NCBI GenBank assembly: GCA_014297435.1
Contig: JACOQA010000002.1
Coordinates: 124,001-188,000, forward strand
From: Candidatus Nanohaloarchaea archaeon
GTDB taxonomy: Archaea; Nanohalarchaeota; Nanosalinia; Nanosalinales; Nanosalinaceae
Direction: 5' to 3'
Length of the DNA: 64,000 bases
The position numbers were made by a program, and so were the translations under genes. Shown one piece after another: positions 1,338 to 33,954 of the stretch; positions within the stretch are counted from its first letter, which is position 1; each line of letters begins with the position of its first letter. Below the pieces are notes generated by a model that was not told the DNA's origin, did no database searches, and saw nothing but the letters and a program-made list of their open reading frames with translations.

Positions 1338-1504
1338 TTCTCGCACCCTTTTTCTTTCCTATATCTTATCCCGTTAGTACACCCCGAGCAACCATCAAAG
1401 GAGTGAGTCTCTAACAGTCACTTGGATCCGTCAGAGTAAACCCACCTATTCTTTCGAAGAAATGGCATGTTTAGTCCTGCTGCAACTCACAATCACCTAA
1501 AGAT

Positions 1505-1523
1505 TGTTCAAATATATTGAACA
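1505..1523 (+). promoter_or_regulatory. Operator-like inverted repeat TGTTC-N9-GAACA, copy 1
   Basis: TGTTC at 1505-1509 and GAACA at 1519-1523 are separated by exactly 9 nt; an extra A/T pair extends the arms inward. It is one of five exact copies between 1.5 and 3.9 kb. It lies upstream of the gene at 1680. Confidence 0.6.
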
Positions 1524-1529
1524 GTAATA

Positions 1530-1548
1530 TGTTCTTCAAAAACGAACA
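1530..1548 (+). promoter_or_regulatory. Operator-like inverted repeat TGTTC-N9-GAACA, copy 2
   Basis: TGTTC at 1530-1534 and GAACA at 1544-1548 have a 9-nt spacer. The arms extend outward as ATGTTC/GAACAT. It starts 25 bp after copy 1. Confidence 0.6.
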
Positions 1549-1606
1549 TTCAAATGTTTTTAATACCTTTTGTTATTTCCATTTGGTGAAGACGAAAATA
1601 GAAGAG

Positions 1607-1625
1607 TGTTCGTCCTTCAAGAACA
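1607..1625 (+). promoter_or_regulatory. Operator-like inverted repeat TGTTC-N9-GAACA, copy 3
   Basis: TGTTC at 1607-1611 and GAACA at 1621-1625 have a 9-nt spacer; the left arm extends to GAGTGTTC. It sits about 20 bp upstream of a TATA-like AAATAAAAAG (about 1649-1658) serving the gene starting at 1680. Confidence 0.6.
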
Positions 1626-1679
1626 ACCAATATTTACTTTTTGGTAACAAATAAAAAGCTAGGGCTTCAATCCTTTACT

Positions 1680-2087
1680 ATGAGCTCAGATCAAGGCTTG
1701 GAAGGCGCCAGAAATGAAGCTAGAACAGTTTATCACGAGAAGGATAGGTATGAAGCCATACCGGAGCTAACGGGAATGATGGGCGCCAAGGAAACGCTCG
1801 AACATCAAGAGAAGGATGCCGTAGATACTGCTTATGAACTAATTAACGAATACGGACACAACCTTGAGGAGGACGATAATAGAGCCAATAAAGATCTGGG
1901 ATGGTCGCTCGCACAGGCAAGGGACCTAATGGAGAGAGAGCCATCTACAGATTTTGAAAAACGTGCACACAACCTTCTCGAAAGCCTTGACAGAAAGATC
2001 TGTCGTGACCAAGAAATATCTGGAACAGTCCAGGTTTATGCAACGATGCATGGTCAGGGCAAAGAGATGAATGAATTAACCGAGTAA
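1680..2087 (+). CDS. Unknown acidic helical protein under TGTTC operator sites
   Basis: The 135-residue product is rich in Glu, Asp, Ala and Leu and looks entirely alpha-helical, with no signal peptide or membrane segment. No known family or catalytic motif is recognised. An in-frame TTG lies upstream at 1641. The ATG at 1680 is preferred because an A/T-rich TATA-like element lies about 27 nt before it, typical of leaderless archaeal transcripts. Three TGTTC-N9-GAACA sites lie upstream and a near match lies just after the stop, so the gene is probably controlled by whatever binds them. Confidence 0.6.
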   Translation: MSSDQGLEGARNEARTVYHEKDRYEAIPELTGMMGAKETLEHQEKDAVDTAYELINEYGHNLEEDDNRANKDLGWSLAQARDLMEREPSTDFEKRAHNLLESLDRKICRDQEISGTVQVYATMHGQGKEMNELTE

Positions 2088-2646
2088 TGAGTGTTAATAA
2101 TATTTGAACACTCATGGACTTTCGCACTAAATTCGGAAAAACATCCAGAACAAAGGAGGTATAACGCAAACGAGTGAATCGATACCACCCCCTCAACAGG
2201 TCGAAGATATACCTTCCTTATTATAGCCGAGATGTTTCTGGCACACCCTTGCCTAAGCGTGAAAGATATATCGATAAACACGTATAGCTATATTTCTGAT
2301 ATACCTCCTTTGTTAAGACTAATTCTCATTTCCCCCTCCACGAGAGTTCAATGACAGCAAACACTCACCGATTCATATCCGCCTAAGTATGAAGATAATT
2401 ACTCCCGCAATCAAAAGTCCTACACCCCAGTAAGTCGAAGTATAAGGCAGTTAAGTAAGAACAAAAGTCGCCAACCCCGACGTAATAAGAGACCATCCAG
2501 CAGTTGTCTGGTAAGCCATAAAACCTATTTAGAGGTCTAAAAGAAAGGATCTTCTTCCAGAATAGAACATGCAAAAGCTTCTATTGTACTACGATCACAG
2601 ATTTCACCGAAAAACTATATTCGAGCACAACAAAACACTTCGAAGC
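2088..2646. other. Intergenic stretch with two degenerate operator copies
   Basis: No convincing gene was found here. A near match TGTTA-N9-GAACA lies at 2092-2110 inside the longer imperfect palindrome GAGTGTT...AACACTC. A weaker one, GAGAGTTC-N9-AAACACTC, lies at 2342-2366. A Shine-Dalgarno-like AAAGGAGGT at 2152-2160 has no convincing ORF after it. Confidence 0.4.
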
Positions 2647-3402
2647 ATGGAGCAATCAAGAAACAAAATCATATTAGCTATCTTAGTTTTTTTGTCAGCA
2701 ACACTCCTCAGCTCCACTCTAATTGATACTCAGAAGGACAAACCCAACTATATCAGCGACTGGGCTTACAAAATAGGGATTGAAAACTATACCTGGTCCG
2801 CTGAAGCACATATAGATAAAACCGAACTCGATTCTGGAATATACCTTGTAACAAAACACAGAAAGGGTGAAGTTACGTCAAAGCAGCTGGATAATGCCTG
2901 GAGACTTTATAACAATACATATTCCGCCATAGTATCTAAAGGATGGACTAAATTCACTAAAGCAAAACAGGACGGCTTCATAAACTGGAGAAATAGTATA
3001 CATTACGTAAACAAAGATTTCATACTCGATAACAAGACTTTAGACCCTGAAAGACCCGAAAGCCTAATTTACTTCAATCAAAGCGGAGAAATGAAACTCG
3101 GAGGAGCAATGTACCTGGAAAACGATATAAACAAGACCGGCAAACAGGTAGGCGGTCCTCTCACAGCCTGGCACTTCCATAGATACGAGGAGAATAGGTG
3201 CTTAGCCGACGGAAAATACTTCATTTCCAGAGAATGTGATAGCAGCGACCCAATAATATCTCCAGAAATGCTGCATGTATGGATGATTAAACATCCAGAA
3301 AGCCAGTTTAGCACCTCAATGTGGATTAAAAACATTTCAAGATCCGATTACGATAAAATAGATAAATTAAAATTTAAAAGAAAAGAGTTAAGGAATAATT
3401 AA
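2647..3402 (+). CDS. Unknown secreted or membrane-anchored protein
   Basis: The 251-residue product starts with a short basic N-terminus and one hydrophobic segment (about residues 7-24, IILAILVFLSATLLSS), an uncleaved anchor or signal peptide. The rest is a soluble domain with many Lys, Asn and Trp residues and several N-x-S/T sequons; a Cys pair (RCLADGKY and SRECDSS) may form a disulfide. No family is recognised. An upstream in-frame ATG at 2569 would put 26 polar residues before the anchor, so the ATG at 2647 is preferred. The gene is more AT-rich than most neighbours and sits in a gene-poor stretch, which may mean acquired DNA. Confidence 0.55.
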   Translation: MEQSRNKIILAILVFLSATLLSSTLIDTQKDKPNYISDWAYKIGIENYTWSAEAHIDKTELDSGIYLVTKHRKGEVTSKQLDNAWRLYNNTYSAIVSKGWTKFTKAKQDGFINWRNSIHYVNKDFILDNKTLDPERPESLIYFNQSGEMKLGGAMYLENDINKTGKQVGGPLTAWHFHRYEENRCLADGKYFISRECDSSDPIISPEMLHVWMIKHPESQFSTSMWIKNISRSDYDKIDKLKFKRKELRNN

Positions 3403-3459
3403 CACTTAAGACGCGAAGAACCCAATGTTCTAAGATATATCAGGTTCCAAAAGAAATAT

Positions 3460-3666
3460 TTACTGCTTGGTATGCTCATCTAGCACTCTTAACACTATAT
3501 CTCTGTTGTTTTCAGTGTAGAGAATGTGTGCCACCCCTTCTTCAGATTTCGTAACCGATATACCTAGCCCCATCTGACCAAACACATCTTTCAGTCTGGA
3601 GTAAAGTCTCCCATCACCATGAATTATGAAGCGTTCGCCGTCGTCCTGGATCTTTGTAATCTTCAT
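3460..3666 (-). CDS. Small unknown protein with operator-like site upstream
   Basis: The 68-residue product reads as a compact alpha/beta domain and has no known motif. Its ATG at 3666 has a TATA-like GTTAAAAAC (about 3685-3693, minus strand) some 25 nt upstream, suggesting a leaderless message. An exact TGTTC-N9-GAACA palindrome lies about 12 bp beyond that TATA element. This geometry mirrors the gene at 1680, so both may be in one regulon. It could be the regulator itself, but no DNA-binding motif is visible. Confidence 0.5.
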   Translation of the reverse strand: MKITKIQDDGERFIIHGDGRLYSRLKDVFGQMGLGISVTKSEEGVAHILYTENNRDIVLRVLDEHTKQ

Positions 3667-3705
3667 GTAGGAAGTTTCTCGAGCCGTTTTTAACCATTTA
3701 CGGAC

Positions 3706-3724
3706 TGTTCGCTTTTTTAGAACA
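3706..3724 (+). promoter_or_regulatory. Operator-like inverted repeat TGTTC-N9-GAACA, copy 4
   Basis: TGTTC at 3706-3710 and GAACA at 3720-3724 have a 9-nt spacer; the right arm extends to GAACACTC. It lies just upstream of the promoter of the minus-strand gene ending at 3460. Confidence 0.6.
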
Positions 3725-3813
3725 CTCAGTTTTCACAAGTTAACAATTAATCAATGAGTGAAAACATAAAGTACTTAAAAGGTTTGAATATTCATAGTTT
3801 TTGAATACATAGT

Positions 3814-3832
3814 TGTTCAATCTATATGAACA
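3814..3832 (+). promoter_or_regulatory. Operator-like inverted repeat TGTTC-N9-GAACA, copy 5
   Basis: TGTTC at 3814-3818 and GAACA at 3828-3832 have a 9-nt spacer; the right arm again extends to GAACACTC. It starts 108 bp from copy 4. Confidence 0.6.
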
Positions 3833-4280
3833 CTCAGAGAATGATTGTGAGTTTAAAACCGGCATTTTGCTTAAATTTAAACCTAAGTTGGGTATAATCC
3901 GGGTCATCCGACTTATCGTGGTGCAATAAATGTGAGGCTCAATACACCATCCGACCATGGATGATTGGATTAGTTGAACCAGAAGCACTAGACCTCCCGC
4001 CAAACTAGAGGGATCTGGCACTAGTCCTTCTGTTGTGTGAGAGTTAGAGCTTTGAACTTCTCAATTTGACCGATAATAGAGCAACCCAAAAACCATTATA
4101 GTCGAGTGTATAGATCGGAGAGGTTCTGTAAGCCAGAAATCCATCTTGAAGCCCGAGAAAAGTATTAACAACATCACAAGGTTACTGCGGCGTTACCATC
4201 GGTTTATTCGGTCTCGATGACGAATAAACGCACCTAGGCATGCTCAAATACGCGGAAGAATTGACTCAGAAGCCGATTTG
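3833..4280. other. Long gene-free stretch with a strong hairpin
   Basis: No supported ORF was found. The most evident structure is a perfect 9-bp stem (GTTTATTCG at 4202-4210, CGAATAAAC at 4221-4229) with a 10-nt loop. A non-coding RNA is possible but no known family signature (SRP RNA, RNase P RNA, tRNA) was recognised. Confidence 0.35.
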
Positions 4281-4319: not shown

Positions 4320-4517
4320 ATGGAGTTCTCAATCGCAAAGATGAAAGAAATGATCAAGGAACAAGGGGACAAAAGGGTTTCAAGAGACAGCGCTGAAGAA
4401 ATGAGAGAGATTCTCGAAATGTTCGCAGGCGACGTATCAGAAGAGGCAATAGCAATCGCTGACGAAGACAGCAGAAAGACAGTCAGAGCCGAAGACGTAC
4501 GAAAAGCCCTCAAATAA
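4320..4517 (+). CDS. Archaeal histone
   Basis: The 65-residue protein is a single histone fold of standard archaeal length: helix 1 (IAKMKEMIKEQG), loop 1 with RVS, a long central helix (SAEEMREILEMFAGDVSEEAIAIAD) and the C-terminal VRAEDVRKALK, which matches the HMfA/HMfB family. It should dimerise and wrap DNA. It is much more acidic than mesophilic histones, as expected in a salt-in halophile. It is the first of a run with RPA and RadA on the same strand, but has its own TATA box and a T7 tract just after the stop, so it is probably transcribed alone at high level. Confidence 0.93.
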   Translation: MEFSIAKMKEMIKEQGDKRVSRDSAEEMREILEMFAGDVSEEAIAIADEDSRKTVRAEDVRKALK

Positions 4518-4587: not shown

Positions 4588-5583
4588 ATGAACGCGAAAG
4601 ACGTCGTCGAAAAAATTGTCGAAGAAACCGACCTAAGCAAGGAAGACGTAAAGGAAGAAGTAGAAGCCAAAACAGACGAGTTCGAAGGCCTAGTATCAGA
4701 AGAAGGCGCAGTACACCTAGTCGCAAAGGACAACGGAGTACAGATCGCGGAAGCCGGCGGACAAGCACTAGACATAGAAAACATCGTCCCCGACATGAGA
4801 AAGGTAAACCTCAAAGCCCGAGTAACCAACATAATGGACGCAAACACCTTCGAAAGGGATGACGGCGACGAAGGAAAAGTACAGAACATGGTCTTGGGAG
4901 ACGAAACCGGCACAATAAGAGTAACACTCTGGGACGAACAGACCGAAATAGCTGAAAAGGTTTCTGAAGGCGACGCAATCGGAGTCGAAGGCGCATACAC
5001 CGTAGAAGACGACAGAGGAAACGCCGAACTAAGACTCGGAGACGAAGCACACGTCAAAAAAGTAGACGACGATGAGGTACCCGAAGTCGAGACAGGTGGA
5101 AGCTCCGATACCGAAAAAGTAGATATTAGAGAGATCCAGTCAGAAGGAGCAAGCTACGAGGTCAAAGGAATGATAATGGATGTCTACACCTCAAGCCCTT
5201 TCTACCGTGTAGACCCTGAAACAGGAGACACAGTAAGAGAAAACGACGACGGAGAACTTGTAACAGATGAAGGCAAAGAAGTAGAAGAACCCGACCACAG
5301 ACTCGCACTATCATGCGTAGTAGACGACGGAACCGGAAACACAAGAGTCGTACTGTTCGGCGACCAAGCAAGAAAACTACTGGAAATCGATGAAGAAACA
5401 GAAAGAGATGGAGACCTCAAAGCAGTAGAGAACGCAGCAACAGACGCTGTAGGCAAAGAAGTCAGAATTTCGGGTAGAACACGTTACAACGACTACTTCG
5501 GAACACTTGAACTTATAGGAAACGAGTACGAAGAAATCGAACCAGAAGACGAGATAGAAGAACTTGTAGAAGTTCTAGCATAA
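4588..5583 (+). CDS. Replication protein A-like ssDNA-binding protein
   Basis: The 331-residue protein has a helical N-terminus (about 1-60) and two OB-fold domains: one around residues 70-160 (KARVTNI...TGTIRVTLWDEQ...GVEGAY) and one around 185-325 (EVKGMIMDVY...GNTRVVLFGDQ...GKEVRISGRTR). The TGTIRVTLWD pattern is diagnostic for archaeal RPA, which coats single-stranded DNA in replication, repair and recombination. The C-terminal zinc finger of some RPAs is absent. The ATG at 4588 is preferred to the TTG at 4567 because it begins the conserved helix. The gene lies 16 nt before radA, fitting co-expression with its recombinase partner. Confidence 0.88.
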   Translation: MNAKDVVEKIVEETDLSKEDVKEEVEAKTDEFEGLVSEEGAVHLVAKDNGVQIAEAGGQALDIENIVPDMRKVNLKARVTNIMDANTFERDDGDEGKVQNMVLGDETGTIRVTLWDEQTEIAEKVSEGDAIGVEGAYTVEDDRGNAELRLGDEAHVKKVDDDEVPEVETGGSSDTEKVDIREIQSEGASYEVKGMIMDVYTSSPFYRVDPETGDTVRENDDGELVTDEGKEVEEPDHRLALSCVVDDGTGNTRVVLFGDQARKLLEIDEETERDGDLKAVENAATDAVGKEVRISGRTRYNDYFGTLELIGNEYEEIEPEDEIEELVEVLA

Positions 5584-5599
5584 ACTTGGTGAACCATTA

Positions 5600-6547
5600 A
5601 TGTCTGAAGACGATATAGAACTTGAAGATCTAAACGGAGTTGGAGCAAAGACAGCGGAAAAGCTTAGAGAAGCAGGATACGACGATCTGATGTCGATCGC
5701 GACCATGAGCGCTGGAGACCTCGGCGAAGTCGCAGACCTAGGAGAGAAAAAGTCTCAGAAGATTATCACTGGCGCACGTCAGGAGCTCGATATCGGATTC
5801 GAGTCCGGTAAAGACCGTTACGATCAGAAAAAGGAGATGAAGAAAATCTCCGCCGGCGCAAGCAACCTAGACGACCTACTTGGAGGTGGCGTCGACACAC
5901 AGTCCATAACCGAATTCTACGGAGAGTACGGAAGCGGTAAGACACAGATCGGACACCAGCTATCCGTAAACGTTCAGAAACCTGAAGGAGAAGGCGGACT
6001 TGACAGAGACGTCATCTACATCGACACAGAGGACACTTTCGTCCCTCAGAGAATCGAGGACATGGCAGAAGACCAGGGAATGGACGTAGAGGAAACACTT
6101 GACCGGATCCACGTTGCCAGAGCATTTAACTCAGACCATCAGATGCTTCTAGCCGATGAGGCACAGGATATCTGCCAGAGCGAGGACATCGGACTAATTG
6201 TTGTCGACTCCTTAACAGCGCAGTTCCGTGCAGAGTACGTTGGAAGAGGAGAGCTCGCACAGCGACAGCAAAAACTCAACAGGCACATGGCCACACTACT
6301 GAGACTCGCAAACAGCCATAACGCAGCGGTAGTTGTCACGAACCAGGTTATGTCGAACCCAGACCAGATGTTTGGCGATCCTACGAAAGCTATTGGAGGA
6401 CACATCGTCGCACACAACTCCGCAACAAGACTTTACCTCAGAAAAGGCAAGAAAGGTAAAAGAGTTGCAAAACTGGTTGACTCACCTTACATGCCTGAAG
6501 GAGAAGCTGTTTACAACATCGAGGACGGCGGAATTAAGGACGCTTAA
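5600..6547 (+). CDS. radA: DNA repair and recombination protein RadA
   Basis: At 315 residues this is a full-length archaeal RecA/Rad51 recombinase. An N-terminal helix-hairpin-helix domain (LEDLNGVGAKTAEKL, about 8-22) leads to the ATPase core with Walker A GEYGSGKT (108-115), IDTED (141-145) and Walker B LIVVDS (199-204), then the DNA-binding L1/L2 region around VGRGELAQRQ and TNQVMSNPDQMFGDP. RadA forms helical filaments on ssDNA coated by RPA and catalyses strand exchange. No intein interrupts it, although RadA is a frequent intein host. The stop overlaps that of the convergent gene by 4 nt. Confidence 0.97.
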   Translation: MSEDDIELEDLNGVGAKTAEKLREAGYDDLMSIATMSAGDLGEVADLGEKKSQKIITGARQELDIGFESGKDRYDQKKEMKKISAGASNLDDLLGGGVDTQSITEFYGEYGSGKTQIGHQLSVNVQKPEGEGGLDRDVIYIDTEDTFVPQRIEDMAEDQGMDVEETLDRIHVARAFNSDHQMLLADEAQDICQSEDIGLIVVDSLTAQFRAEYVGRGELAQRQQKLNRHMATLLRLANSHNAAVVVTNQVMSNPDQMFGDPTKAIGGHIVAHNSATRLYLRKGKKGKRVAKLVDSPYMPEGEAVYNIEDGGIKDA

Positions 6548-8745: not shown

Positions 8746-10242
8746 CTAGTTTTCTAGCTCAAGATTATAGATCTCTCCATACTTTCCACGAATATAATTC
8801 AGGAAGGGCTCAGAATTAATTGGCTCATTAGTAACTTTCTCTATAAGCTCCTCGGTTTTAAGCAATCTGCCCTTGGAATGGATGTGAGTTTTAAGCCAAT
8901 CCCTCAAGTCTTCAAACTCTCCGGATTCAATCTTTTTCTCCAAGCCCTCGACCTCTTCTTCTGCTTCACGGTATATCTGGGTGGCTAAAACACTTCCTAG
9001 GCTGTAGGTCGGGAAATAACCAAAGTTGCCCCATGCCCAGTGAATGTCCTGCATAACGCCCTCAGAATCTGTCTCAGGCTCCAAACCAAGGTATTTCTCC
9101 ATACGCTTGTTCCATTCTTCTGGAAGATCCTCCACCTCTATCTCTCCATTCATTAAGGCTCTTCCAATCTCGAACCTCAACACTATGTGAAGATGGTATG
9201 TAAGTTCATCCGCTTTCACACGGATCATATTATCCTCGTATACCTGATTGATCGACTCATAACAGTCCTGAATCGAGATCTCCTCGAACTTTTCCGGAAA
9301 CCTTTCCTCAAGCTTCGGAAGCATAAATTTCCAGAACTCCTTCGACCTACCAACCTGATTTTCCCAAAGTCTCGACTGAGACTCGTGTACAGAAAGCTCT
9401 CTAGCCCCTCCTCTAGGAGTGGCGTAATCTCCCTCCGGAAGACCTAACTGGTACAGTGCATGACCCAACTCGTGTATTGTAGGCATAAGCGAACCCGAAA
9501 GATCTCCTTGCTCAATACGAGTAGTTATACGTGTATCAAAGGTGTTTCCCGAAGTGAAAGGATGTTCGGAGCAGTCAAGTCGACCGTTTTTCTTGTCAAA
9601 ACCAAGAAGCTCCGCCAACTCATGATTGAGCTCCATCTCTTCTTCGTCCTCGAAGTCTCCCTTGAATGCATTTTGCTCTATATCTTCAGCTTCAGATATT
9701 TTCTCAACAATAGGTACAAGACCTTTCTTCAAGTTCTTTAGAACTTTCTCCATTGTTTCGTAGCCTATATACGGCTCATAATCCTTGAACAATACCTTGT
9801 AGGGCTCTTCATCTGGATTAATCTGGTTAGCATAGCGACGCTTTAATTCAACTAGTTCTCTAAGTTCTTCAGCAAAAAGCTCATAATTATCCTCTTTCTT
9901 TGCTTTCTTCCAGGCATTTACAGCCTCTGACTCTTTCTGAGACATCTTCTCCATCAAATCTGCAGAAACACTCTTCATTCTTTCACGTTCACGTTCAATC
10001 TCACGAACATTAGCCTTCTGGCTTTTATCTAGATCGCGCCTATCTATTGATTCCAAAAGCTCTCCAAGTCGTTCCGAAACAAGTTTCTCATGCCTTAGTT
10101 TCGTCAAAACACTCTTCTGCTTTGATCGAGCTTCTAAACCTTTTTCAGGCATCATTACTTCTTCATCCCAGCCCAGAACGCCTACGGCTTCCTCAAGATT
10201 TCCTAGAACCTTTACCTCTTTTTCGAACTCTTCGTAGCTCAT
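8746..10242 (-). CDS. Carboxypeptidase, M32 (Taq) family
   Basis: The 498-residue product matches the M32 thermostable metallocarboxypeptidase family in length. The zinc motif HELGH is at 257-261, followed by HESQSRLWEN, the M32 signature with the third ligand. The C-terminal GNFGYFPTYSLGSVLATQIY is also typical. These enzymes release C-terminal amino acids, usually with broad specificity, in the cytosol; no signal peptide is present. It is the first of four peptidase genes in 7 kb and diverges from the M29 gene at 10304. A host-dependent cell could use such a set to digest scavenged peptides; that is inference. Confidence 0.95.
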   Translation of the reverse strand: MSYEEFEKEVKVLGNLEEAVGVLGWDEEVMMPEKGLEARSKQKSVLTKLRHEKLVSERLGELLESIDRRDLDKSQKANVREIERERERMKSVSADLMEKMSQKESEAVNAWKKAKKEDNYELFAEELRELVELKRRYANQINPDEEPYKVLFKDYEPYIGYETMEKVLKNLKKGLVPIVEKISEAEDIEQNAFKGDFEDEEEMELNHELAELLGFDKKNGRLDCSEHPFTSGNTFDTRITTRIEQGDLSGSLMPTIHELGHALYQLGLPEGDYATPRGGARELSVHESQSRLWENQVGRSKEFWKFMLPKLEERFPEKFEEISIQDCYESINQVYEDNMIRVKADELTYHLHIVLRFEIGRALMNGEIEVEDLPEEWNKRMEKYLGLEPETDSEGVMQDIHWAWGNFGYFPTYSLGSVLATQIYREAEEEVEGLEKKIESGEFEDLRDWLKTHIHSKGRLLKTEELIEKVTNEPINSEPFLNYIRGKYGEIYNLELEN

Positions 10243-10303
10243 AACGCACTTTTTGCTCGGACAAGATAAAAAACATTCACGCTCTAAAACTTCTATAGAA
10301 CAG

Positions 10304-11425
10304 ATGAAGACCTCAGAAGACCCCCGGCTAAAGAAATACGCAGAAACACTAGTTGAAAGATCAGCAGAGGTTGAGAAAGGAGACGACGTCTACATTCTCG
10401 TCAAATCACTTGAGGCCTTACCGCTTTTCGAAGAGGTCAGACGCCAGGTGATAGATAAAGGCGGTTTCCCGCACGAGAAAATTCTTTACGATACGCAGTC
10501 CGGCGAAAACAACGATTACTACTGGATGAAGAACGCCTCGGAGGAACAGCTGGAGAGAACTTCGGAAGCAGAACTTGAGTTCATGGAAAAAATGGACTCC
10601 TTTATCAAGATCAAAGGACTGGAGAACAATCGTTCTTTGAGCGATATCGACCCCCAGAGAATATCTACCTGGGGAGAAACTACCGACAAGATAAAAGAAG
10701 CAAGAATAGATACCAAGTGGGCTCTATGTGCCTTCCCAACAAACGCCTTGGCTCAACAGTCGGAAATGGCAACAGAAGAATTTGAAGAATTCATCTTCAA
10801 AGCAGTAAACAACACCGACTGGAAAGAACTAGAGAGGAAGAACGAAGAGATAAAACAGATGTTTGATAAAGCCCAGAAAGTACGCATAAAGGATGAAAAC
10901 ACAGATCTAAGCTTCAGTATCGAAGATCGTGAAGGAGTTAGCTCTATAGGTCGGAGAAATATTCCGGACGGCGAAGTATTCTACGCTCCAAGAAAAGACA
11001 GCTTTGATGGGAAAATAAGTTTCGAACACCCTGTAAACGCTAGAGGGAAAGAAGTTTCAGGCATCGAGCTGACGTTCGAGGACGGCGAACTCGTAGAATA
11101 CACAGCGGATACGAACCAAGAATTCCTAGAAAAAATGATTGAAACTGACGAAGGATCAAAATACGTGGGCGAGTTCGGTATCGGCACCAACAGAAATATT
11201 GACCGCTACATCAAGTACACCTTGTTTGATGAAAAGATCGGCGGAACTGTTCACTTCGCGCTCGGTCGAGCTTACAAGATGAATTTCTCCGAGGAAAACA
11301 TGGCTGAACGTAACGAGTCCAGCATCCATTGGGACATTGTCAAAGACCTTAGAAAAAGAGTTGGCGGCGGCAAGATAATACTTGACGGAGAAGTTGTCCA
11401 GAAAAATGGAGAATGGGTTTACTGA
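10304..11425 (+). CDS. Aminopeptidase, M29 family (copy 1)
   Basis: The 373-residue protein fits the M29 metallo-aminopeptidase family (AmpS/aminopeptidase T). It shows GEFGIGTNRNIDRYIKYTLFDEKIGGTVHFALG and a C-terminal SSIHWDIVKDLR, which carry the conserved Glu/His/Asp metal-site residues. It removes N-terminal residues from peptides and complements the carboxypeptidase next door. The ATG at 10304 (MKTSEDPRLKKYAETLV) fits the family N-terminus better than the upstream TTG at 10253. The 3' end overlaps the convergent pepF gene by 7 nt. A second, shorter M29 paralogue lies at 14586. Confidence 0.92.
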   Translation: MKTSEDPRLKKYAETLVERSAEVEKGDDVYILVKSLEALPLFEEVRRQVIDKGGFPHEKILYDTQSGENNDYYWMKNASEEQLERTSEAELEFMEKMDSFIKIKGLENNRSLSDIDPQRISTWGETTDKIKEARIDTKWALCAFPTNALAQQSEMATEEFEEFIFKAVNNTDWKELERKNEEIKQMFDKAQKVRIKDENTDLSFSIEDREGVSSIGRRNIPDGEVFYAPRKDSFDGKISFEHPVNARGKEVSGIELTFEDGELVEYTADTNQEFLEKMIETDEGSKYVGEFGIGTNRNIDRYIKYTLFDEKIGGTVHFALGRAYKMNFSEENMAERNESSIHWDIVKDLRKRVGGGKIILDGEVVQKNGEWVY

Positions 11426-18553: not shown

Positions 18554-18838
18554 ATGAAAGACTTTTTTCTTAACGAAAAACCAGTTATGGCTCTAGTAAC
18601 GATCAGAAAGCATAGAGATGACGTCTATGGGAGCTTAATTTCGCAGAAGATAGACACGACGTACGCCCATACCGTTAAGATTCTTTCCAGGATGGAGGAT
18701 CACGATCTTATTGAGACGGAGAAGAAGGGTAGGAAGAAGATTCTCACTCTCACCGACAAGGGTGAGGAATATGCAGACCACTTTATAGAGCTGATTAACT
18801 GCTTTGAAGACAATCAGATAGAGAAACAGAGCCCATAA
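18554..18838 (+). CDS. Winged-helix transcriptional regulator (copy 1)
   Basis: The 94-residue protein is a compact winged helix: FFLNEKPVMALVTIRKHRDDVYGSLISQKIDTTYAHTVKILSRMEDHDLIETEKKGRKKILTLTDKGEEYADHF. The recognition helix is TYAHTVKILSRME and the wing is KKGRKKILTLT. It resembles MarR/PhiH1-type archaeal regulators. It starts 3 nt after the phosphoribosyltransferase gene, so the two are co-transcribed, and the PRTase-like protein could act as a ligand sensor. A paralogue lies at 18960. Confidence 0.85.
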   Translation: MKDFFLNEKPVMALVTIRKHRDDVYGSLISQKIDTTYAHTVKILSRMEDHDLIETEKKGRKKILTLTDKGEEYADHFIELINCFEDNQIEKQSP

Positions 18839-18936: not shown

Positions 18937-18954
18937 CAGGGTATTTACTCCCTG
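18937..18954 (+). promoter_or_regulatory. Inverted repeat CAGGG-N8-CCCTG at the transcription start
   Basis: The palindrome lies about 10 nt downstream of the TATA box TTTAATAAG (18921-18929), overlapping the predicted transcription start of the winged-helix gene at 18960. This position fits autorepression. Confidence 0.45.
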
Positions 18955-18959
18955 TGACG

Positions 18960-19271
18960 ATGAGCGACCCAGAAGAGATAGAGAAGCTGTTCCTCAAGAA
19001 CAAGCCGGTGAAGATCATAGTCAAAATCCGGATGCAAAGGGACGAAAACTACGCCCTCCAACTCTCAAAGGAAGTAGACGCCACCTACTCCCATACAGTT
19101 AAAGTCCTCCAGAACATGGAGGAACACGACCTGGTGAAGTTCAAGAGAGAGGGTCGGAAGAAGATAGTCGAACTAACAGAGGATGGAGAAAGAATCGCGA
19201 AGGCCTTCAAGGAAGTCTATGATGAGATTGAGAAGACCGATGGCGAAAATTCCATCATCAGGAGGGCATAA
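18960..19271 (+). CDS. Winged-helix transcriptional regulator (copy 2)
   Basis: The 103-residue protein is a clear paralogue of the one at 18554: LFLKNKPVKIIVKIRMQRDENYALQLSKEVDATYSHTVKVLQNMEEHDLVKFKREGRKKIVELTEDGERIAKAF aligns over the whole winged-helix domain, including TYxHTVK and EGRKKI. It has a longer helical C-terminus, probably for dimerisation. A GTG at 18954 is in frame, but the ATG at 18960 fits the alignment and the leaderless promoter. It lies upstream of the SipW-type substrate and signal peptidase genes and may control them; that is inference. Confidence 0.85.
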   Translation: MSDPEEIEKLFLKNKPVKIIVKIRMQRDENYALQLSKEVDATYSHTVKVLQNMEEHDLVKFKREGRKKIVELTEDGERIAKAFKEVYDEIEKTDGENSIIRRA

Positions 19272-32033: not shown

Positions 32034-33245
32034 CTATATGTAAAACTTTTCTTCTACGAGTTCGTTGATCTGACCTCTAATATCTTCGGAAAGATCGACG
32101 GATATCTGTCTTGTTCTTCCGTAACGCCCTTTCGAAATAACCTTGGCGTTGATAACCCCCAACATGTCAAGCTCAGATATCAGTCCTGAAACTCTTCTCT
32201 GCGTAAGCTTTGAGACATCTACGTCCTGGCAAAGCTCTTTATATTCACTGTAAACATCTCCTGTCGCTATCTCATCTTCATCCTCCGTCATATCAAGTAT
32301 AGTGTAGAGAACAAGTTTCGAGTGCTTAGGCTGATTCCTCACTGTTTCGACCACTCTGTCTCTTTCAATCTTCTCCTGTGCCTGGTCGACGTGATCGGTA
32401 GCTACTTCTTCGCTGCTGGATCTTTCTGCCAGTTCTCCTGCAACACGGATAAGATCTAATGCTCTTCTTGCGTCGCCATGTTCTTGAGCGGCTAAAGCAG
32501 AACATTTCGAGATAACTCCTTCCTCTAAAGTATCTTCAACAAATCCTTTTTCCGCCCTGTCCTTCAAAATTTCTCTAAGTTCTATCGCGTTGTAAGGCGG
32601 GAAGATTATCTCCTCTTCTGAAAGTGAGGACTTTACTCTTGAGTCCATGTACTCCGTAAAGTTTAGGTCGTTCGAAATCCCTACAATAGAAACTTTTGTT
32701 TCATCTAAGTCGTCGTTGATTCTTGTAAGGTTGTATAGGAATTCGTCTCCGACTTTTTTGACTAATGCATCGATTTCGTCTAATGCAATTATTACTACAC
32801 CTTTCTGTTCCTGTAGTGCTTCGAAGAAACGGTTGTAAACCTCATCGGTCGGAAGTCCTGTGCTTGGTACATCGTCTCCTAACTGTCCTGCAAGCTTAGC
32901 AAGTAAGCGGTACTCTGTATCGGCTACCTTCTTCATCTTACAGTTTATGTATACAATATTAAGGTCGACGTCCTCGTCTTCGGCAACATCGTTTAACTCA
33001 CCTGTAACGTGCTTTGTAATTAAGGTCTTCCCTGTCCCTACAGAACCGTAGATGAAGACGTTTGATGGATCGTCTCCTCGGAGGCTTGGTGCCAGAATGG
33101 ATGCGAGGTTGTTGATCTGCTGGTCCCTATGTAGTATGTTGTCAGGTTTCCAGTTGGTCGTAAGAGCGTCCTTGTTTTTGAAACAAGATTTCTTGTCGAT
33201 GTAGTCAGAGAACATCGACTTCAGGTTGCCCTGACTCAAAACCAT
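32034..33245 (-). CDS. Orc1/Cdc6 replication initiator
   Basis: The 403-residue protein has the ORC/Cdc6 AAA+ layout: Walker A GSVGTGKT (67-74), Walker B VVIIALDEIDALV (about 135-147), sensor-1 region VSIVGISNDLNF with the catalytic Asn-Asp, an RDRAEKG helix, and a C-terminal winged helix (RRVSGLISELDMLGVINAKVISKGRYGRTRQI) that reads origin DNA. It should bind the ORB-like repeats immediately upstream (33285-33717) and load the MCM helicase. It is the first gene of the minus-strand replication block. Confidence 0.95.
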   Translation of the reverse strand: MVLSQGNLKSMFSDYIDKKSCFKNKDALTTNWKPDNILHRDQQINNLASILAPSLRGDDPSNVFIYGSVGTGKTLITKHVTGELNDVAEDEDVDLNIVYINCKMKKVADTEYRLLAKLAGQLGDDVPSTGLPTDEVYNRFFEALQEQKGVVIIALDEIDALVKKVGDEFLYNLTRINDDLDETKVSIVGISNDLNFTEYMDSRVKSSLSEEEIIFPPYNAIELREILKDRAEKGFVEDTLEEGVISKCSALAAQEHGDARRALDLIRVAGELAERSSSEEVATDHVDQAQEKIERDRVVETVRNQPKHSKLVLYTILDMTEDEDEIATGDVYSEYKELCQDVDVSKLTQRRVSGLISELDMLGVINAKVISKGRYGRTRQISVDLSEDIRGQINELVEEKFYI

Positions 33246-33284
33246 TCCCCTCTGTAGAAGTGCATTTGTTTTTGCCCCCGTGTT

Positions 33285-33306
33285 GGTTCCATTCGAAACG
33301 AAGGTT
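33285..33306 (+). promoter_or_regulatory. ORB-like element 1 (weak)
   Basis: TTCCATTCGAAACGAAGG shares the TCCA...CGAAAC core with the other elements but lacks the full G run. It lies 40 bp from the orc1 start and may also mediate autoregulation. Confidence 0.5.
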
Positions 33307-33348
33307 TAAGTATATACTCCAGATGAATTCCGTGTAAAACCAACCCCC

Positions 33349-33370
33349 ACCCCCTGTTTTCGTGTGGAAC
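33349..33370 (-). promoter_or_regulatory. ORB-like element 2
   Basis: On the minus strand it reads TCCACACGAAAACAGGGGGT, a good match to the archaeal ORB pattern with G string. Confidence 0.75.
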
Positions 33371-33395
33371 TTAATCCTAACCACCCACCTACCGG

Positions 33396-33428
33396 TATAA
33401 CACTGTTATATTATATGTCGGTGTTATA
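33396..33428. repeat. AT-rich inverted repeat, possible DNA unwinding element
   Basis: TATAACAC (33396-33403) and GTGTTATA (33421-33428) flank a 17-nt AT-rich spacer. It lies between ORB-like elements 2 and 3, where duplex opening would be expected. Confidence 0.5.
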
Positions 33429-33458
33429 ACGTAAACTCGAACTCAGATTAGAAAATAA

Positions 33459-33480
33459 CTCCATACGAAACCGAGGGGTC
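33459..33480 (+). promoter_or_regulatory. ORB-like element 3
   Basis: TCCATACGAAACCGAGGGGT on the plus strand matches elements 2 and 4 and points toward the interior of the region. Confidence 0.75.
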
Positions 33481-33483
33481 TGT

Positions 33484-33612
33484 GGTTTAGAGGCAAAACC
33501 GGATAAAAATGGTCTAAACCATACAGCTAAACCGAAACCGGCAGAAACAATATAGAGAAAACAGACAACAAAACTAAGTTCTTAAGGTTTAGAGAAATAT
33601 TTATTGGTTTAG
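33484..33612. repeat. GGTTTAG repeats inside the origin
   Basis: GGTTTAG occurs at 33484, 33586 and 33606, and its complement CTAAACC at 33514 and 33527, five copies in 129 bp between ORB-like elements 3 and 4. They may bind a second initiator or accessory factor. Confidence 0.55.
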
Positions 33613-33695
33613 ATAACAGCCAGAAAAACGTTTTAGAAGAATCAAAGATTTCCTAGTTTGATAAAATGCTTTAGAGTTGCTTAGAATGCTTGTTT

Positions 33696-33717
33696 GACCC
33701 CCTGATTTCGAGTGGAG
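33696..33717 (-). promoter_or_regulatory. ORB-like element 4
   Basis: On the minus strand it reads TCCACTCGAAATCAGGGGGT, inverted relative to element 3 and marking the far side of the origin. Confidence 0.75.
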
Positions 33718-33801
33718 AAGAGAGGGTATAGTTCTTAATATGGGTTATCGGAGAGTAATAATACCTCATATTTTAAGGCTTCCTGTTCGAGTAAGGAGTC
33801 A

Positions 33802-33954
33802 GTGAGTCACGGCTCAGGAAACCAACATTCAGACCCGGCAAGAAAATGGGAGAAAGCACTCGCCCATATCACAATCGCAATCATCCTCAGCATAGGACGA
33901 GTGACTTATTCAGTTTTCGCCTCAGTCTTCAGGATTCTGACACGGCTAGCCTGA
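33802..33954 (+). CDS. Small single-pass membrane protein beside the origin
   Basis: This 50-codon frame begins at GTG and encodes a polar N-terminus (MSHGSGNQHSDPARKWEKAL) followed by a hydrophobic segment (AHITIAIILSIG) and a basic amphipathic tail ending RILTRLA. TATTTTAA at 33769-33776 lies about 26-33 nt before the GTG and would give a leaderless message; AAGGAG (33793-33798) is also just upstream. The end overlaps the convergent large gene by 26 nt. It is not recognised, and is supported mainly by promoter position and membrane-helix character. Confidence 0.4.
   Translation: MSHGSGNQHSDPARKWEKALAHITIAIILSIGRVTYSVFASVFRILTRLA

Follow-up and report, generated by a model that had tools for sequence, protein, structure and literature searches.

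In the Sulfolobales, SegB sites cluster near oriC1, and the SegB motif TCTAGASTCTAGA occurs at 46 sites distributed genome-wide, mostly inside genes (PMC12284271). On pNOB8, AspA binds a 23-bp palindromic centromere, and its site lies upstream of the aspA-parB-parA operon (PMC5120986). For the DPANN archaea, a literature search returned no description of chromosome segregation, nor did we find any report of the palindromic sites described here. These sites, hereafter P sites (TGTTC-N9-GAACA), lie within a 64,000-nucleotide stretch of a nanohaloarchaeal genome (the window), in which eight of them form an array of two mirrored triplets, A-B-C on either side, and a pair that encloses a core with three R repeats.

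The array resembles the SegAB system in that palindromic sites of one protein are clustered near an origin. However, SegB sites are spread over the genome, whereas the palindrome of the array is 27 bp long and belongs to a single non-coding locus. Moreover, the array contains no SegB motif, and the single near-match in 248 kb is 35 kb away from it. With AspA-ParB-ParA of pNOB8 the locus shares a palindrome of ~23–27 bp and a small winged-helix protein; the gene beside the array, fam11, encodes a product of weak sequence similarity to AspA and is a candidate P binder at most. In contrast to aspA, which belongs to an operon, fam11 stands alone between the array and a divergent histone gene, and no parB and parA were found after it. 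Bacterial ParABS also relies on an origin-proximal cis site, parS, but possesses ParB, for which no equivalent was identified at the array; parS (TGTTNCACGTGAAACA) is an unrelated motif with no match in the array within 2 mismatches. Finally, archaeal oriC regions with ORB repeats likewise have mirrored protein sites around a core, but here the ORB repeats and the skew switch are found at cdc6, ~28 kb from the array.

Results and Discussion

A first-pass annotation of the sequence reported five exact P sites with common outer bases and two near matches, and interpreted them as a small regulon of a dimeric regulator in an AT-rich, possibly acquired island. All five exact sites are present where they were placed (Table 1), as is the near match at 2092, which carries one mismatch. 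The second near match also exists, with two mismatches, but its core starts at 2345 rather than 2342. Further elements escaped that annotation: a pair of outer CTCACA boxes, three R repeats (2147-2316) and, near 3789, an eighth P site that is weak. The outer bases TGAGTGTTC...GAACACTCA do agree, both among the home sites and across relatives, in which the full motif is the 27-bp palindrome TGAGTGTTCR-N7-YGAACACTCA; the central N9 is different in every site. The stretch is indeed AT-rich, with 39% GC against 44% for the window. Palindromy, a half-site conserved in many genera and fixed spacing all support sites for a dimeric DNA-binding protein, as the annotation had supposed.

Table 1. Features of the array and of the neighbouring origin region (window coordinates).
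Feature	Position	Strand	Remarks
Outer CTCACA box, left triplet	1486..1491	+	
P site, left triplet A, exact	1505..1523		
P site, left triplet B, exact	1530..1548		25 bp from A
Conserved AT-rich, TATA-like segment between left B and C	1555..1572	+	
P site, left triplet C, exact	1607..1625		77 bp from B
135-aa orphan ORF (cargo)	1680..2087	+	no family
P site flanking core	2092..2110		1 mismatch to TGTTC-N9-GAACA
R repeat 1	2147..2163	-	AACAAAGGAGGTATA
R repeat 2	2208..2224	+	61 bp from R1
R repeat 3	2300..2316	+	92 bp from R2
P site flanking core	2345..2363		2 mismatches
277-aa orphan ORF (cargo)	2569..3402	+	no family
68-aa alpha/beta protein gene	3460..3666	-	conserved in Nanohaloarchaeota, not always within array
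P site, right triplet C, exact	3706..3724		
TATA-like AT-rich segment, right triplet	3765..3789	-	
Weak P site, right triplet B	3789..3807		matrix score 7; position matches layout
P site, right triplet A, exact	3814..3832		
Outer CTCACA box, right triplet	3846..3851	-	TGTGAG on +
Archaeal histone gene	4320..4517	+	conserved neighbour
RPA and RadA genes	4588..6547	+	conserved neighbours
orc1/cdc6	32034..33245	-	array ~28 kb downstream
oriC	33288..33716		four ORB-like repeats at 33288, 33350, 33460, 33698; skew switch just beyond

The five exact sites fall within 2.3 kb, where 0.003 would be expected by chance: when the local AT-rich DNA (2.7 kb) was resampled 2000 times with a Markov model, just 6 resamples contained at least one exact site (mean 0.003). 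Across the home genome (998,768 bases, 15 contigs) there are 8 exact sites, 5 in the array and 3 elsewhere. A position matrix was then used for scanning at a score of at least 14, with scores that are partly circular because the matrix was built from the exact sites. It matched nothing but the array sites in 248 kb of the home contig, and outside the array it gave two matches in 513 kb of genome G006 and one in 420 kb of G015. Independently of the matrix, a search with the 25-base P core (up to 2 mismatches) found it in 25/28 genomes, mostly at the array locus, and the reversed 25-base control had 0 matches in all 28. A virus or plasmid element was considered and dismissed, as just four viral-contig stretches held the exact 25-mer and these were taken as chance. 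Scattered GACTGTTC..GAACTCTC sites occur off the array (G000:C11:57829, G008:C1:710259, G011:C16:100252, and G026:C37 and C93); possibly they are the operator of a different regulator.

In the home family (f1) the layout is constant and reads P-25/35-P-76/77/86-P, variable DNA, P-R-61-R-92-R-P, variable DNA and the mirrored triplet. Among spacings of 130 bp or less between neighbouring sites, 25 occurs 9 times, 35 occurs 5 times and 76/77 occurs 13 times, and the R-R spacings are 60/61 and 92 in nearly all arrays. Alternative spacings differ by about ten bases, one helical turn of DNA, and spacings are kept while the N9 centres and the spacer sequence diverge. All three copies of R (TATACCTTCTTTATTAT) in 248 kb of the home contig lie within the array. 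Nearly all triplets conserve a CTCACA box outside the outermost P site, and nearly every f1 triplet has the TATA-like, AT-rich segment between B and C, right after P_B. In G017 the R core is tandemly duplicated (R-92-R-60-R-53-P; L226 on G017:C5, ~8982-11200). We rejected a structured non-coding RNA in the core: covariation is not convincing, with just one compensatory change in the only helix, Rfam holds no match, and the third R copy flips its orientation in G006 and G008.

Among relatives, clustered exact P sites mark one locus per genome. Within the order, families f1, f3, f4 and f5 have the P-bearing locus, invariably downstream of cdc6/oriC at a distance of 15-38 kb; one f2 genome yielded fragments only. 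It adjoins histone-RPA-RadA in f1, f3 and f5; in the f4 genome G021 it adjoins fam11 and fam28, 23 kb from cdc6. The compared genomes are related rather than independent, several are incomplete, and their intersite sequence is largely too diverged to align. Across the phylum the array is found in the same position next to histone-RPA-RadA, which speaks against an acquired island. In the cores of f3-f5 arrays, Q repeats (TAGTCAACTGTTGACTA and variants) take the place of R. The same families possess fam28, a 120-aa winged-helix gene that is absent from f1 and starts at Q in f4 and f5. This joint exchange of Q and fam28 for R suggests that fam28 is a putative Q binder; as a P-binder it was rejected, being absent from f1 and better suited to Q. 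Two further motifs were seen in f3/f5 (L048, L050, L051, L071), namely ACATGTTTT.TA.AACAA outside the triplets and a AGAATATATTTTA-like element inside them.

The genes enclosed by the array are not conserved with it. No convincing relative of the 135-aa ORF was found in 60 genomes, and since the 277-aa ORF is likewise an orphan, which makes two of the three home genes, the cargo may have been acquired even though the array was not. Other genomes contain fam58, fam28 or nothing at this position. Relatives of the 68-aa protein were seen in Nanohaloarchaeota only (SG9, M3_22, NHA25, PL-Br10 and others), and a search for viral relatives gave none. Its predicted fold (two strands, helix, two strands, helix; pLDDT 88) was not matched by any PDB entry at a threshold of E 0.001. 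The gene occurs away from the array, or without one, in genus g11, G007 and G020, with no P site nearby, and conversely arrays without it are found in G014, G016, f3, f4 and f5. In g11 (L063, L065, L073) it adjoins a long conserved operon together with fam91/fam92 genes.

How far does this fit transcriptional control? The similar distances to TATA boxes on which the annotation drew hold only approximately, the nearest P site ending 54 bp from the start codon of the gene at 1680 and 39 bp from that of the minus-strand gene at 3666. A small regulon is contradicted by a motif essentially at one locus per genome, by the 68-aa gene occurring elsewhere without a site, by arrays that outlast that gene, and by f5 triplets at 3′ ends of genes. 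A more elaborate version is the main rival to our interpretation, and we consider it rather unlikely: two repressor-controlled inward promoters with tripartite looping operators that control variable cargo (the 68-aa gene, fam58 and orphans). The model for this is phage lambda, in which OL and OR are two sets of three palindromes that bracket a region and are suited to looping. The array shares with it the two bracketing triplets. In favour of this rival are the TATA-like segment directly 3′ of P_B in nearly every f1 triplet, fam58 ORFs that begin in P_C and the start of the 68-aa gene ~40 bp past P_C in six genomes. However, f1 arrays have no repressor gene inside, and in f3 the array is kept without genes, its triplets enclosing ~0.5 kb of non-coding DNA. 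The f5 triplets are located not at promoters but where the adjacent genes have their 3′ ends, and in neither family does a gene lie behind the triplets. The site-free copies of the 68-aa gene outside the array and the near-confinement of the P motif to the array locus also argue against this rival.

Comparison of the congeners G009/G015 and G002/G012 shows the array interior in opposite orientations with respect to its flanks, and an inverted interior is also seen in G010. Given that the genes are exchangeable and the interior is inverted between congeners, the conserved object is the array and not its genes. The inversions, along with mirrored ends bearing outer CTCACA boxes, would suit an ancient element, mobile or invertible, that has stayed where it was and whose ends carry P as the target of a recombinase or transposase. 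We regard this as very improbable: the interior encodes no recombinase, no two sites have the same central N9, the locus stays beside histone-RPA-RadA, and within a single genome the breakpoint segments on the left and on the right differ from each other. The G009/G015 breakpoints fall in the conserved B/TATA-like segment.

The position of the array also raises the question of replication. Upstream of cdc6 (window 33246-33928) lie ORB-like repeats (TCCAC.CGAAA..AGGGGG), which occur in either orientation and enclose an AT-rich stretch, and in 248 kb perfect copies occur nowhere else. In G000, G006 and G015, the strand skew calculated from fourfold sites and adjusted for gene direction has its switch next to cdc6 rather than at the array. 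With both signals at cdc6, the array was ruled out as the main replication origin. It might still act in replication control, as a second or conditional origin or as a site that titrates the initiator; repeat arrays flanking a core, the proximity to the origin and to RPA and RadA, and the two tandem cores in G017 would fit such a role. However, the corrected skew and the perfect ORB-like repeats single out cdc6 alone, and we hold this explanation to be improbable.

A complex for chromosome maintenance fits best, because the site is single, non-coding, symmetrical, helically phased and close to the origin, and has outlasted its genes. We therefore tentatively favour a putative cis-acting chromosomal nucleoprotein site, most likely centromere-like (for partition or tethering of the origin region) or with another chromosome-maintenance role. 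A dimeric protein would fill the P sites, bridging across the core would join the mirrored triplets in a single complex, and this complex would retain or transport the origin region once it has been replicated. Between families, the protein that binds the core would have been exchanged, with Q and the fam28 winged-helix gene in f3-f5 and R without fam28 in f1. The narrower proposal, on which we are more doubtful, is that the array may serve the phylum Nanohaloarchaeota as its chromosomal centromere, or partition site. It would then form a looped, symmetrical assembly in which the core binder was replaced while the flanking palindromes were kept, with a motif unrelated to SegB or ParB sites.

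A candidate for the P binder is fam11, a small winged-helix gene found phylum-wide, which in 12 genomes separates the array from the divergent histone gene. Against the PDB, it matches AspA chains at E ~2e-5, although the best match is the uncharacterised AF_1382 (E 2e-15) and lower matches are MarR. It is only a candidate because paralogs exist and no fam11 was clearly detected in G004, a 98% complete genome with P sites, which weakens fam11 as the sole P-binder. The paralogs form a tandem small winged-helix pair at window 18554-18838 and 18954-19271, and a similar pair lies ~11 kb from the array in G006. ParA-like genes are present in 10/10 genomes tested, and none adjoins the array. Against a centromere, then, stand the lack of a partition protein tied to the array, and the TATA-like segments and ORF starts at inner P sites in f1, which suit gene regulation; nearness to the origin could be plain synteny.

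Conclusions

In summary, the array is a non-coding element of the chromosome in which spacing is conserved more strongly than sequence, and its core repeats are swapped together with their candidate binder. Should it turn out to act as a transcription switch, its retention across the phylum in the absence of a fixed target gene would still make it unusual. As a phylum-wide site at a single locus, with a defined motif and geometry, it offers a direct experimental handle on segregation in DPANN archaea.
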